Shown: positions 4,667 to 9,685 of the stretch, piece by piece
Numbering within the stretch: position 1 is the first letter of the stretch
Layout of the letters: the number at the start of each line of letters is the position of its first letter
Origin: Clostridia bacterium
GTDB taxonomy: Bacteria; Bacillota_A; Clostridia; Oscillospirales; SIG627
NCBI GenBank assembly: GCA_017508505.1
Contig: JAFVYT010000095.1
Location: 1-10,085, forward strand
Reading direction: 5' to 3'
DNA: 10,085 nt
Position numbers and translations under genes: made by a program
The notes under the pieces: model-generated
The model's database searches: none
Told to the model about the DNA's origin: nothing
The model's input: the letters and a program-made list of their open reading frames with translations, nothing else

Positions 4667-4695
4667 ATGATACACATTTTCCGCTGAAATGTCAA
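4667..4695 (-). promoter_or_regulatory. Sigma-A type promoter of the pot-alaS operon
   Basis: On the minus strand the -35 box TTGACA (4695-4690) is followed by a 17-nt spacer and the -10 box TATCAT (4672-4667). Only one base of the twelve departs from consensus. Transcription should begin near 4660, leaving a leader of about 60 nt before the potA ATG. The leader holds a small hairpin (TCCTTT/AAAGGA in plus-strand terms at 4624-4629 and 4635-4640) but is too short for a T-box or a typical riboswitch. Confidence 0.85.
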
Positions 4696-4773
4696 GAAAA
4701 GCGCCGCTATTTTTCCTCAAAATTCCCCTTGTTTTTTTCCCGCGTCCGATCCCTTCTTTTTTCCCTTCCCGCC

Positions 4774-4802
4774 TTGACACGGAAATGGAAAGAAATTATA
4801 AT
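4774..4802 (+). promoter_or_regulatory. Perfect consensus sigma-A promoter of the cyclophilin-ribF operon
   Basis: TTGACA (4774-4779), 17-nt spacer, TATAAT (4797-4802): every position matches the vegetative sigma-A consensus. The expected start of transcription is 7 nt downstream of the -10 box, at about 4809, which is the A of the first ATG of the next gene. The 53 bases at 4723-4775 contain only six purines on this strand, including several T-tracts directly upstream of the -35 box. The promoter points away from that of the pot operon, and the two -35 boxes are 78 bp apart. Confidence 0.9.
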
Positions 4803-4808
4803 GATAGT

Positions 4809-5144
4809 ATGTTCAAAAAATTATATATGAAACTGTTCCCCGACCGCTACTACGCCTCCGCCGCCTATCGCAGGGAGGCCGCAGCCAAATACGACAGCAA
4901 GATCTTAAAATACGTCACCGAACGGCTCGAGACCGGGGATATCGTGCTTTGTAAGGACGCTTACATCTGTGTCAGGATGGGCTACGTTTTCGTGAACAGC
5001 GAGACCGAATCCATCTTTAAATGCTGTGACGAAAGCGTGCAGTCGGGGGAATTGATGAGCCACGACGGCGTGATCTTCACGGGATACGACGAAATTCAGG
5101 GAAAGGAAAGAAGTATCGTTTGTTACTTCAAATATTACCGATGA
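4809..5144 (+). CDS. Unrecognised 111-aa protein, probably leaderless
   Basis: I do not recognise this family. The frame begins MFKKLYMKLFPDRYY and ends IVCYFKYYR. The first third is basic and aromatic (Lys, Arg, Tyr) with a likely helix at residues 18-40. The remainder alternates hydrophobic and polar residues as in a small beta-rich fold (GDIVLCKDAYICVRMGYVFV, then HDGVIFTGYDEIQGKERS). There is no signal peptide or membrane helix, so it is probably cytosolic; four Cys are present (positions 48, 53, 72, 73). The chosen ATG coincides with the predicted transcription start of a perfect promoter and has no ribosome binding site; a second in-frame ATG at 4827 also lacks one. The stop overlaps the next gene's ATG (ATGA, 5141-5144), so it is the first gene of the operon. 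The open frame extends upstream to 4689, but that part covers the promoter. Confidence 0.72.
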   Translation: MFKKLYMKLFPDRYYASAAYRREAAAKYDSKILKYVTERLETGDIVLCKDAYICVRMGYVFVNSETESIFKCCDESVQSGELMSHDGVIFTGYDEIQGKERSIVCYFKYYR

Positions 5145-6385
5145 AACAGCTCCGCACCGTCCTCTCAATCGTTCTGGTCCTCGCCGCCCTCCTCTCGCTG
5201 TTCTCCTGCAGCGCCGAAAAGGCCGGGGAGACGGGCTCGCTTCCCGAGGGCTTTGAAAAAAGCGACGAGACCTCCAACTACGTTTGCATCCAAATGAACA
5301 CGGGAAAAAACATCATTTTGGAGCTTTATCCCGATATCGCTCCCAAGACCGTGGCCAACTTTCAGAAGCTGGTCGGAAAGGGCTTTTACGACGGGCTGAT
5401 CTTCCACCGCGTCATCTCCGGCTTTATGATCCAGGGCGGTGACCCGGACGGAAACGGCACCGGCGGCCCCGGCTGGACCATTGAGGGTGAGTTTGCCTCC
5501 AACGGCTTCCAAAACAACCTCAAGCACGAGCGCGGCGTCATCTCCATGGCAAGAAGCCAATCCCCCAACTCCGCGGGCAGCCAGTTCTTCATTATGCACG
5601 AGGCCGCCGCCCATCTGGACGGGCTATACGCCGCCTTCGGCAAGGTCATCCACGGCCTTGACGTGGTAGACGAGATCGCAGGGTGCAAGGTGGCGGGTGA
5701 GACCCCCGTGACCAAGCAGGTGATGGAAAAGGTCTATTTTCTGACCAAGAACGGCTCGGTGGGCACCGTGCCCGCCTCCACCGAGGAGAAGAAGAGTGAG
5801 ACGGCGGAGACGGAGGAGGAGAAAAAGACCGAGGAGAAGGCTCCCCCTCAGATCATCGTTCCCACGGGCTACACCCGCTCCGAGGAGAAAACCGATACCG
5901 TCTGCATTCAGATGAAGGCAGGGGGACATATTCTGGTGGCACTCTCCACCGAGGCGGCTCCCCTTACCGTTTCCAACTTTAAGTCTCTGGTGTCAAAAGG
6001 CTTTTACGACGGACTGACCTTCCACCGTGTCATGTCGGGCTTTATGATTCAGGGCGGTGATCCGGACGGAGACGGCACCGGCGGTCCCGGCTGGACCATC
6101 GACGGTGAGTTTGCCGAAAACGGCTACGTAAACGAAAAGCAGCCCTCCCACGTGCGCGGCGTCATCTCCATGGCCCGCAAGACCGCTCCCAACTCCGCCG
6201 GAAGCCAGTTCTTTATTATGCACGCAGACGCTACCTATCTGGACGGCAAGTACGCCTCCTTCGGCAAGGTCATCGAGGGAATGGACGTGGTAGACCGAAT
6301 CGCCTCCTGCGAGGTTTCGGGAGAGACTCCCAAGGAAGCACAGGTCATCGAGGCCGTGTATTTCGTGACCAAAGCAGAAGCGTAA
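5141..6385 (+). CDS. Lipoprotein peptidyl-prolyl cis-trans isomerase with two tandem cyclophilin domains
   Basis: A 414-aa exported foldase predicted to speed cis-trans isomerisation of X-Pro bonds in proteins outside the membrane. A signal peptide (1-22) ends in lipobox LFSC, so Cys23 should be lipid-modified and anchor it to the outer face of the membrane. Cyclophilin domain 1 spans about 45-203 with the active-site run [15 protein letters not shown] (88-102: Arg90, Phe95, Met96, Gln98) and SQFFIMH (147-153). Domain 2 spans about 250-412 with [15 protein letters not shown] (294-308: Arg296, Phe301, Met302, Gln304) and the same SQFFIMH. A charged Glu/Lys/Thr/Ala linker (about 205-238) joins them. 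Both active sites look intact. The start at 5141 is chosen because it gives the signal peptide directly and overlaps the previous stop; an upstream in-frame ATG at 5120 adds seven residues before it. No strong ribosome binding site is seen, consistent with coupled translation. Confidence 0.93.
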
Positions 6386-6428
6386 GAGATCGCTTGAATT
6401 TGCATCAACCGTGAAAGGAAAAAAGAAA

Positions 6429-6941
6429 ATGGCATTTGTAAGAAGTGAAGAAAAGACCGAATGGGTCAAATTCGTAATGGAAAACGGAAACGAGATGGTC
6501 GCGCGCCTTTACCCCGACGTAGCTCCCATCACCGTAGCAAACTTTCAGAAGCTGGTGGACGGAGGCTTTTACAACGGGCTGATCTTCCATCGCGTCATCC
6601 CCGGCTTTATGATTCAGGGCGGTGACCCCAAGGGCATCGGCACCGGCGGTCCCGGCTGGACCATCAAGGGTGAATTTGCCGCCAACGGCGTCAAAAACGA
6701 CCTCAAGCACAAGCGCGGCGTCCTCTCCATGGCACGCTCCATGGCTCCCGACTCCGCAGGAAGTCAGTTCTTCATTATGCACGAGGCCGCCCCCCATCTG
6801 GACGGGCAATACGCCGCCTTCGGTGAATTGGTGGAGGGGCTCGAGACCGTGGACGCCATCGCTGAGGTACAGACGGACTTTGCGGACAAGCCCCTGTTCG
6901 ATCAGGTTATGAAGGAAGTCTATTTCGTAAAGGAAGCATAA
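6429..6941 (+). CDS. ppiB: Cytosolic cyclophilin-type peptidyl-prolyl cis-trans isomerase
   Basis: A 170-aa single-domain cyclophilin without signal peptide, so it should act in the cytosol on X-Pro bonds of folding proteins. The active-site run [15 protein letters not shown] (53-67) carries Arg55, Phe60, Met61 and Gln63; RGVLSMARS and SQFFIMHEA follow (96-120), then [14 protein letters not shown]. Length is typical for bacterial PpiB. ATG at 6429 is preferred because AAAGGA lies 9 nt before it; GTG at 6411 would add six Lys-rich residues. It starts 43 bp after the two-domain lipoprotein and is closest to that protein's first domain (shared ANFQKLV and DLKH/NLKH-type segments), which suggests an origin by local duplication. 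The ppiB name reflects family membership rather than proven orthology. Confidence 0.93.
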
Positions 6942-6947
6942 ATCCAA

Positions 6948-7856
6948 ATGTCGTTTCGTTACCCCGAGGGGACCGCAGTCGCCCTGGGCAATTTCGACGG
7001 GATCCATCTGGGACACCGCGCCATCATCGAGCCCTGCGCCGAGGACGCCGCAAAGATGGGTCTGACTCCCCTTGTGTGGAGCTTTTACCGCCATCCGGAG
7101 GAGCTCCTGCGGGCAGGGGGTGCCCCCGGCTGTCTGACCCCGCCCGAGGAAAAAAGAGAGCGCATCCTCAAAATGGGCATCCGCGAGGTGATCCTGGAGG
7201 AATTCGTCCGCTTCCGCGATCTTTCCCCCGAGGATTTTTGCAAACAAGTCCTGCGGGACACCCTGAACGCCAAGCGGGTCTATTGCGGCTTCAACTTCCG
7301 CTTTGGAAAGGGCGGTGCGGGAGACGCGGCCTTTTTGAAGCACTGCCTTGCCGAAATGGGGCTTGACACGGTGGTTGTTCCTCCCGTGTGCATCGGGAAT
7401 GAAGCCGTTTCCTCCACCCGCATCCGCGGGATGCTTTCCGAGGGAAGGGTCGAGGAGGCCGCCGCGCTTTTGGGCCGTCCCCACTCCCTGACGCTCCCCG
7501 TTTCCCACGGGAAAAAGCTGGGTCGGAAAATGGGCTTTGCCACCGTCAATCAGGTGCTTCCCGAGGGTCTTGCCACGCTCAAGCGCGGGGTCTACGGGGT
7601 TCGTTGTCACACCGCGAGCGGAGCGTTCTACGGCATTTGCAACCTCGGACTCCGTCCCACCGTAGACTCTGACGGAAGGACCGTGGCGGAAACGCACCTG
7701 TATGATTTCGATGCGGACCTTTACGGGCAGACCGTCACAACGGAATTTTGCTTTTTCGTGCGTCCCGAGATGCGCTTCGACTCTCTGGAGGCACTGCAAA
7801 TAAGAATCGGGCAGGACACCGAATTCGTCCGCGCCCGCTGGAAGGAAATCATATGA
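6948..7856 (+). CDS. ribF: Bifunctional riboflavin kinase / FMN adenylyltransferase (FAD synthetase)
   Basis: A 302-aa cytosolic enzyme that phosphorylates riboflavin to FMN and adenylates FMN to FAD. The N-terminal nucleotidyltransferase domain (about 8-175) has LGNFDGIHLGH (13-23) and the SSTRIR motif (155-160). The C-terminal kinase domain (about 182-302) has GRKMGFATVNQ (192-202), GVYGV (214-218), NLGLRPTVD (232-240) and Glu248 in AETHLYDF, the position of the catalytic base in this family. The usual GFPTAN nucleotide-binding signature reads GFATVN: Thr199 and Asn201 are kept, but Pro and Ala are changed. The N-terminus is short, starting directly before the first strand. It lies 6 bp after ppiB, with AGGAAG 11 nt upstream, and its stop overlaps the next start (ATGA, 7853-7856). 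No FMN riboswitch precedes it. Confidence 0.95.
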   Translation: MSFRYPEGTAVALGNFDGIHLGHRAIIEPCAEDAAKMGLTPLVWSFYRHPEELLRAGGAPGCLTPPEEKRERILKMGIREVILEEFVRFRDLSPEDFCKQVLRDTLNAKRVYCGFNFRFGKGGAGDAAFLKHCLAEMGLDTVVVPPVCIGNEAVSSTRIRGMLSEGRVEEAAALLGRPHSLTLPVSHGKKLGRKMGFATVNQVLPEGLATLKRGVYGVRCHTASGAFYGICNLGLRPTVDSDGRTVAETHLYDFDADLYGQTVTTEFCFFVRPEMRFDSLEALQIRIGQDTEFVRARWKEII

Positions 7857-9685
7857 AAAAAAGGCTTCTTGCGCTTCTTTGCAGCCTGATCGCGGCAGTA
7901 TGCTTGCTGTCGCCCTTCGTCGTTTCTGCAGAAGAGCCGGAGGAGCCCGAGATCAGCTGTCCCACCGCCGCCGTGTACAATCTGGAGTCAAAAAAGCTTC
8001 TGTTTGAAAAGAATTACACGGGTCGCCTCTCCCCTGCCGCCTTCACCAAGCTGATGACGGCGATGCTCGCGCTGGAGTATCGGGAAACGGCGGGCAACGT
8101 GAGCGTAACCGTGACGGAGGAAATGCTCTCCTCCTTTTCCGGCGGCACCTCTATGAAGCTCAAGGTGGGGGAAACGCTCCCCCTCGACTCCCTTCTCGAG
8201 GGGCTGATCGTATACGGAGCCAACGACGCCGCCCTGGTTCTTGCCTCGGTCAGCGGAGGCAACATCTCTTCCTTTGTGGACGCGATGAACGCGCGTGCCG
8301 AGGAATTGGGGATGGAGAACACCCACTACACCAACCCCACGGGCGTCCACTCCTCCGCCATGTACACCACACCGGAGGATACCGTCCTGCTCTGTGAAAG
8401 CATCTATCGGGTCAACCGCTTTATGCTCCTTTCGGAAAAGCCGAACACGGTCATCCCCGCCACCAACCTGACCGGGGAGCGCAGCTACACCAACCGCAAC
8501 GCCCTGGTCCCCTTCTCCTACGTCACCGACTACTATATGGAGGGCGTCAGAGGAATGGTCTCCGGCTATACGCAGGAGGCGGGCTGGTGCGTGGCCACGG
8601 TTCGCCAAAAGAAAAACGCCACCTACCTTGTGATCGTCTCCGGAGGAGAGGATCGCAGCGAAAAGCAAAACCAAACGGATATCTCCTCCTATCGGGATGC
8701 CAAGACCCTTCTGGAATGGGCGGAGGAGAGCTTTGCCTTCCAAAGCGTCCTGACCAAGGGCAAGATCGTCTGCGAAAAGAAGGTGCGCCTCGGGGCAGGG
8801 GTCGACCACGTGATTCTGGCCACGGGGGACGAGGTCAATGCCCTCCTTCCCGTCACCTTTGATCCGGAGACCGACATCCGTTTGGAGACAAACGTATCCA
8901 AGGACACCTTCACCGCCCCGGTCATTGAGGGCTCCTCCTACGGGACGATGGACGTGTATTACAAGGACGAGCTGCTGGCAAGTGTTCCTTTGGTGGCGGC
9001 GTCCGGCGTGGGTCTGTCCCGATGGCTCGTCACCTGGGATGCCATCACGGGCTTCTTTTCCCACGGTCCCGCCCACGTGGCCCTGATCCTCGTGATCCTC
9101 GCAGGGGTCTCCTACGTAGGCGTTCTGGTGGGAACGGTGTGGGTCCACCACGCAAGGGAAACCCGTGCCAAGCGCCGTGCCGTGAAGGAAATGAACCAAG
9201 AGGAAAACCGCAGACTGCGGCTGGTCCGCCAGGAGGAGAAGAAGGCCTCCCGTGCCAGACTCCGCCGCGTGACCCGTGCTCTGCACGAGGGCTTTTTGGT
9301 GCTCTCGGGAGAAACGGAGGACGGCTCTGCGGGACAAAGCACCCCCAGGCGTGCCGTGGCAAGGGTTCCCGAAAAGTATCGGAAGCACCCGACACCGCCT
9401 CGAGCCCCCCGAGCCGCACGCCCTGCGGCAAAGCGAGCGCCGACCCCCGCAAAGGGACAGAAGCGCCCTGTCGTTCGCTCCACCCCGCAAGTCCTGCACC
9501 GTCCCGCAGGCATCGGCCAAGGCGGCAAGAAGCCTCCCCTGAAGGGAGAAAAGGTAACTCTTTCCGTCAAGCGCCCCGCTCCAAACAAAGACAGAAAAAA
9601 GGCCCCTACCCCGCCAAGACCCCCGCAGCAGCGGCCGCCCCAAAGGCAAAAGCCCCAGGGAAACCCAAGGAAGCCGAAAGGATAA
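7853..9685 (+). CDS. DacF-like (peptidase S11) membrane protein with degenerate active site and long basic cytoplasmic tail
   Basis: A 610-aa protein related to D-alanyl-D-alanine carboxypeptidases, which trim peptidoglycan stem peptides outside the cell. Signal peptide 1-26 ends in VVSA. The S11 domain (about 33-290) keeps its surrounding sequence: CPTAAVYNLESKKLLF, KLMTAMLALE, LLEGLIVYGANDAALVLA, THYTNPTGVH, SGYTQEAGW. The catalytic motifs are changed: the SxxK site reads A63-F-T-K66, SxN reads G122-A-N124, and KTG is missing (VSG at 236-238, or R233 with a three-residue insertion). A beta-rich PBP5-C-like domain follows (about 295-385). A transmembrane helix at about 407-430 precedes a cytoplasmic part: a charged, probably helical segment (434-478), then an Arg/Lys/Pro-rich tail to the end. 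The start at 7853 fits the signal peptide and has AAGGAAA upstream; an in-frame ATG at 7748 lies inside ribF. An intrinsic terminator follows. Carboxypeptidase activity is unlikely; a receptor or scaffold role is inference. Confidence 0.9.
   Translation: MKKRLLALLCSLIAAVCLLSPFVVSAEEPEEPEISCPTAAVYNLESKKLLFEKNYTGRLSPAAFTKLMTAMLALEYRETAGNVSVTVTEEMLSSFSGGTSMKLKVGETLPLDSLLEGLIVYGANDAALVLASVSGGNISSFVDAMNARAEELGMENTHYTNPTGVHSSAMYTTPEDTVLLCESIYRVNRFMLLSEKPNTVIPATNLTGERSYTNRNALVPFSYVTDYYMEGVRGMVSGYTQEAGWCVATVRQKKNATYLVIVSGGEDRSEKQNQTDISSYRDAKTLLEWAEESFAFQSVLTKGKIVCEKKVRLGAGVDHVILATGDEVNALLPVTFDPETDIRLETNVSKDTFTAPVIEGSSYGTMDVYYKDELLASVPLVAASGVGLSRWLVTWDAITGFFSHGPAHVALILVILAGVSYVGVLVGTVWVHHARETRAKRRAVKEMNQEENRRLRLVRQEEKKASRARLRRVTRALHEGFLVLSGETEDGSAGQSTPRRAVARVPEKYRKHPTPPRAPRAARPAAKRAPTPAKGQKRPVVRSTPQVLHRPAGIGQGGKKPPLKGEKVTLSVKRPAPNKDRKKAPTPPRPPQQRPPQRQKPQGNPRKPKG

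Follow-up and report, generated by a model that had tools for sequence, protein, structure and literature searches.

Results

The first 10,085 nucleotides of contig JAFVYT010000095.1, from a Clostridia bacterium (assembly GCA_017508505.1), make up the stretch of DNA that we analyzed as a whole and call the window. Within it lies a gene for a DacF-like protein of peptidase family S11, placed so tightly behind the flavin gene ribF, on the same strand, that the ribF stop codon (TGA, 7854-7856) overlaps its start codon (ATG, 7853-7855). The original prediction, made from the letters alone, held that this protein has lost all three active-site motifs of penicillin-binding proteins (PBPs), which suggested a selected pseudoenzyme; our analysis confirms the losses and partly supports that interpretation. 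The features of the two genes are as follows.

6948..7856, + strand: ribF, bifunctional riboflavin kinase / flavin adenine dinucleotide synthetase (Pfam FAD_syn, 137.5 bits; Flavokinase, 112.3 bits)
7853..9685, + strand: S11-fold, predicted pseudo-carboxypeptidase gene, 610 codons plus stop, frame intact
7853..7930, + strand: signal peptide, residues 1-26 (ending VVSA; top-scoring Kyte-Doolittle window of 19 residues, 2.63, at residue 6; cleavage site predicted)
7934..8626, + strand: Peptidase_S11 domain, residues 28-258 (PF00768, 124.4 bits, cut-off 27.6)
8039..8050, + strand: degenerate SxxK, A63-F-T-K66, nucleophile Ser gone and Lys retained (sequence, alignment)
8216..8224, + strand: degenerate SxN, G122-A-N124, Ser gone and Asn retained (sequence, alignment)
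8558..8566, + strand: degenerate KTG, V236-S-G238, Lys gone and Gly retained (sequence, alignment)
8741..9010, + strand: PBP5_C domain, residues 297-386 (PF07943, 29.9 bits, cut-off 21.2)
9020..9061, + strand: short pre-membrane helix, residues 390-403 (structure model)
9068..9148, + strand: transmembrane segment, residues ~406-432 (Kyte-Doolittle score 2.62, residue 409; the structure model has a helix at 406-484)
9149..9304, + strand: helix predicted to be cytosolic, residues 433-484, E/R positions conserved (alignment, model, hydropathy; sidedness putative)
9350..9382, + strand: tail motif RAVARVPEKYR, residues 500-510; clade consensus KAVAKVPEKYRK (pattern search)

Loss of the three catalytic motifs

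The expected S11 framework, signal peptide and intact 610-codon frame are all present, and PBP5_C, the transmembrane segment and the tail can be added to them. By fold and profile the protein belongs to S11, with PF07943 and a hydrophobic segment predicting membrane anchorage; the Peptidase_S11 block of the structure model has a predicted local distance difference test score mostly above 90, and lower near residues 91-100 and 211-230. Within this framework, the nucleophile position is occupied by Ala63 (GCC, 8039-8041) in the context P61-A-A-F-T-K66, SxN reads G122-A-N124 (GGA-GCC-AAC), and the KTG place reads V236-S-G238 (GTC-TCC-GGC). The first two readings are as originally described. For the third, two placements had been offered, and V-S-G stands: it lies directly opposite K-T-G in alignments to solved S11 proteins and to homologues, which makes the alternative with a 3-residue insertion unnecessary, and we reject it. 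In a motif scan, S-x-x-K, S-x-N and K-[TS]-G were all missing from the whole 610 residues, which leaves no displaced motif to replace the lost ones and rules out another Ser-x-x-Lys able to serve. The SxxK serine, SxN and KTG expected of a D,D-carboxypeptidase are all absent.

These states are common to a clade. Among a capped set of 7997 scored candidates, at least 166 proteins passed the E 0.001 cut-off, and 120 of these, including the window protein (P0001), were compared; P0001-P0060 form the close set, several of them fragments. In this set, residue 63 is A in 43, S in 8, T in 4 and a gap in 5, and residue 122 is N in 50, G in 4, A and C in 1 each and a gap in 4, with Ser never found. Residue 236 is V in 26, I in 21, A in 7, and G, S or T in 2 each (Lys in 0/60). 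Lys66 (55/55 rows with a letter) and Asn124 (56/56) are invariant, as are G238 and T240 (60/60). The intact frame and the sharing of motif states among homologues rule out a sequencing error or frameshift. The tail motif pattern also marks the close set, in 55/60 members versus none of P0061-P0120; three of the five members that lack it are short (346-483 residues). Of the 52 close homologues with 540 residues or more, among which the window protein is included, 16 have W-P-D/N/E at or near the C-terminus; it may be a short motif for binding a partner, and the window protein itself lacks it. Where source names of close homologues were seen, which was for a few, they were hypothetical protein or D-alanyl-D-alanine carboxypeptidase.

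Other S11 proteins carry differently broken motifs: L045 has Asp for Ser with KTG kept, L053, L062, L065 and L066 have Gln or Asn in place of the SxxK Lys, and L082, L103-L108 and L128, from the GTDB family described below, retain SxxK and K[ST]G with an SxN that reads S-x-C.

Linkage to ribF and distribution

The nearest relative in the genome collection (57%) is encoded at locus L001 of genome G001, whose GTDB family includes the 22 genomes we examined. A relative lacking the KTG lysine lies directly downstream of ribF in 19/22 of them, with other flanking genes differing. None was found in G006, G017 or G019: the matches in the first two were all of K[ST]G type, and G019 had none at 1e-40. 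Each genome has 2-5 S11 matches. Of 37 further S11 loci in the family, 36 carry SxxK and K[ST]G, the 37th (L129) being the linked gene of G013 itself. Thus, a protein with SxxK and K[ST]G occurs beside or instead of the KTG-less one in 21/22 genomes, and in 20/22 it also has SxN; in the two genomes short of the full set, G014's protein reads SxC and G013's other match is a fragment.

To these we added an order-wide sample, in which a profile search of 197 genomes gave 18 non-family loci and 60 further places. With one match examined per order genome, the prevalence of ribF-linked genes (11 of 78 loci, L168-L245) is a lower bound. Combining the order-wide loci, 79 other loci, 19 GTDB-family loci and the window yielded 174 S11 genes with at least 400 nucleotides upstream. 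L001 and L156-L167 were set aside because they duplicate L138 and family loci, respectively; rows in which two or more of the seven motif columns were gaps, and the 8/182 with less upstream sequence, were also removed.

ribF lies directly upstream of 37 of these 174 genes, and Lys236 is present in 0/37 linked versus 126/137 unlinked genes. Position 236 is Asn in 25 of the linked genes. Lys66 is kept in 37/37 linked versus 133/137 unlinked genes and Asn124 in 37/37 versus 126/137, whereas Ser122 drops to 11/37 (130/137 unlinked) and Ser63 to 26/37 (128/137 unlinked), the remainder having A (5), G (3), N (2) or T (1). The Fisher value of 2.4e-28 should not be taken as a probability, as the genes are not independent: their rows are related and were sampled with profiles built from the KTG-less family or close to it. 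The distance between the ribF and S11 domains runs from -29 to +129 nucleotides in 36/37 linked genes (525 in L020). By its position behind ribF, its missing KTG lysine and its Lys66 and Asn124, the window gene belongs to this linked family. The KTG lysine is also gone in 11/137 unlinked genes; the S11 genes L173, L184 and L197 have N-Y-G or N-A-G at this motif, and the upstream sequence fetched for them contains no ribF.

Across the class, 59 of 196 genomes (some of the same order) had matches, and all 29 best matches read have Lys at KTG. No ribF was seen ahead of any of the 29, though L253 offers only 175 nucleotides upstream and, with one best match taken per genome, a lower-ranked linked copy could be missed.

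Just upstream of ribF the window encodes two cyclophilins (two-domain, 5120-6382, and one-domain, 6411-6938, both +), which have relatives at the loci fetched from G001, G003, G004 and G005. Ahead of these lie a 151-residue open reading frame (4689-5144, +) with no Pfam match at E 0.01 and a 154-residue relative in G002, and a single open reading frame (509-2398, -) in which a PotC-like permease (BPD_transp_1) and a solute-binding protein (SBP_bac_8) are joined, with a similar-sized 636-residue relative in G001 (L138).

Order of loss and selection

In a 70-row tree built without the motif columns, Lys236 requires 2 changes and Ser63 requires 14, 11 of them inside the 52 ribF-linked and close rows; a 90-row quick tree gives 3 and 14. 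Canonical rows (28 in the 90-row tree, then 8 in the 70-row tree) were chosen only among carriers of Ser63, Lys236 and Gly238; 16 close homologues were included, and the near copies L020 and L242 were omitted from both trees. On the 90-row tree, the main group excludes linked L206 and L217, which are placed with L173, L184 and L197. The simplest reading is that the KTG lysine was lost early in the ribF-linked family, the SxN serine drifted, and the nucleophile changed many times. The three losses that had been read together are all real but do not amount to one event. A coupling of Ser loss to the long tail finds no support, as the short L049, L219 and L245 (411-434 residues) also lack it and the long-tailed G013 and G014 proteins retain it.

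By Nei-Gojobori counts on the S11 domain, nonsynonymous divergence (dN) between the window and G001-G003 is 0.31-0.36 and synonymous divergence (dS) is 1.2-2.7, which is saturated. The close pair G012/G009, both with Ser, gives 0.036 and 0.68. Purifying selection on the Ala form is read from the distant pairs and from conserved columns.

Discussion

We consider it probable that the window protein is a non-catalytic, secreted, membrane-anchored S11 protein of DacF/PBP5 fold, selected as a scaffold or receptor. The sequence and model features that suggest this are the fold, the three lost residues with Lys66 and Asn124 kept, one predicted C-terminal transmembrane segment, the conserved tail and the ribF overlap. 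Relatives without the third motif beside ribF in many Clostridia appear to be kept for a non-chemical job. The earlier view of a selected pseudoenzyme finds good support in the fold, the retained Lys and Asn, the clade-shared state and dN below dS. In such a protein, the ectodomain would recognize peptidoglycan stem peptides, or a PBP or hydrolase partner, without cleavage, and the transmembrane segment could relay position or state inward, to a partner that the conserved tail binds in the cytosol. Being translated together with ribF might keep the amount of S11 protein in step with the production of flavin cofactors, or just with growth. The KTG lysine would have been lost first, early in the linked family, with the serine varying later; given free variation of the nucleophile after that early loss, even Ser-bearing members are argued to be non-catalytic. 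Having no nucleophile, the window protein is not expected to be targeted covalently by penicillin.

Several observations weigh against this view. Ser63, Lys66 and Asn124 occur together in 26/37 linked members, and therefore much of the family could hydrolyze a substrate other than D-Ala-D-Ala. The linked and close rows form no single clean clade, needing 3 changes on the 70-row tree, and the absence of the gene from three family genomes may reflect incompleteness or dispensability. The ribF neighborhood is no proof of a shared pathway. We only infer the putative ligand and partner of the window protein, the sidedness of its tail, and partner binding.

The strongest competitor draws on the same residues: the linked family could be an active serine hydrolase of changed specificity, with a working Ser63-Lys66-Asn124 and N-[AS]-G as its third motif, in which the serine disappeared later from certain lineages, the window's among them. 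Not every SxxK-fold enzyme has KTG as its third motif, and the frequencies of Ser63 and Asn236, together with universal Lys66 and Asn124, fit such an enzyme. However, Ser63 has changed at least 11 times in the linked and close rows, and lineages without it have retained the S11 gene, its domain and the pairing with ribF. Positions T65, S99, H170 and Y171, well kept in canonical S11 proteins, are also eroded in the linked set (in the window protein, T65 and Y171 are intact and positions 99 and 170 are T and M). We regard continuing activity as unlikely, and as an alternative to be taken seriously; the ancestor of the family may have been active with altered specificity.

A role tied to flavin and not to peptidoglycan strikes us as improbable; here the ectodomain or tail would cooperate with RibF or with what RibF makes, for instance to sense flavin metabolism or place it at the membrane. 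Such a role would account for a pairing in which all 37 partners of ribF lack the KTG lysine and which persists in the GTDB family despite differing other flanks. Yet no flavin mononucleotide riboswitch was found in 8 loci, where only tRNAs reached the gathering score, Pfam found no flavin-binding domain in the window protein, and a neighborhood can last for expression reasons. A decaying gene heading for loss would explain the missing catalytic residues and the three family genomes without a copy, but is very hard to reconcile with an intact frame, a state common to 59 homologues, invariant Lys66 and Asn124, and dN well below dS; equally implausible is a carboxypeptidase still working through unusual residues, since, despite Lys66 and Asn124, there is no nucleophile in place and no other SxxK anywhere.

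The non-catalytic reading can be extended, speculatively and with considerable doubt, beyond one GTDB family within one clostridial order: ribF-coupled dead carboxypeptidases might be transmembrane receptors that read stem peptides uncut, with the window's clade signaling through the transmembrane helix to a partner that the KAVAKVPEKYRK tail binds in the cytosol, thereby tying wall growth to flavin cofactor supply. The literature searched offers no explanation for the lasting link of KTG-less S11 genes to a flavin gene. Judged by titles and the starts of abstracts among the matches listed, the open-licence literature searched holds no description of the ribF-linked family, and searches for dacF with ribF, for PBP pseudoenzymes and for the KTG motif matched nothing; the only match for a riboflavin kinase and carboxypeptidase operon is unrelated by its title. 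The family runs from the canonical enzyme through KTG loss to Ser loss, a natural series that suits a direct test of non-catalytic S11-fold function.

Native active sites are intact in Bacillus subtilis PBP 2B and Clostridioides difficile PBP3. Both are reported as PBP-fold proteins with catalysis-independent roles (PMC5656894; PMC12713402), seen in inactivated mutants or where activity proved dispensable, whereas the window gene is, by its motifs, natively dead. Likewise, Escherichia coli PBP4 is described as localizing to midcell independently of its own activity (PMC9166362), while the passages of PMC2605481 deal with family S12, not S11. The catalytically inactive LytM regulator DipM is reported to have a dead peptidoglycan-hydrolase fold that binds autolysins and stimulates some of them (PMC10336132). 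The window protein resembles it in having a dead wall-enzyme fold, but the folds are unrelated, and a role shown for DipM is only proposed here. The closest known systems are the DacF/DacA/PBP5 D,D-carboxypeptidases (MEROPS S11, PF00768 and PF07943), which share with the window protein the fold, domain order, signal peptide and C-terminal membrane attachment, and from which it differs in its three degenerate motifs, long conserved tail and ribF overlap. It is S11 by fold, and, as far as its residues tell, not a D,D-carboxypeptidase by any of the three motifs.
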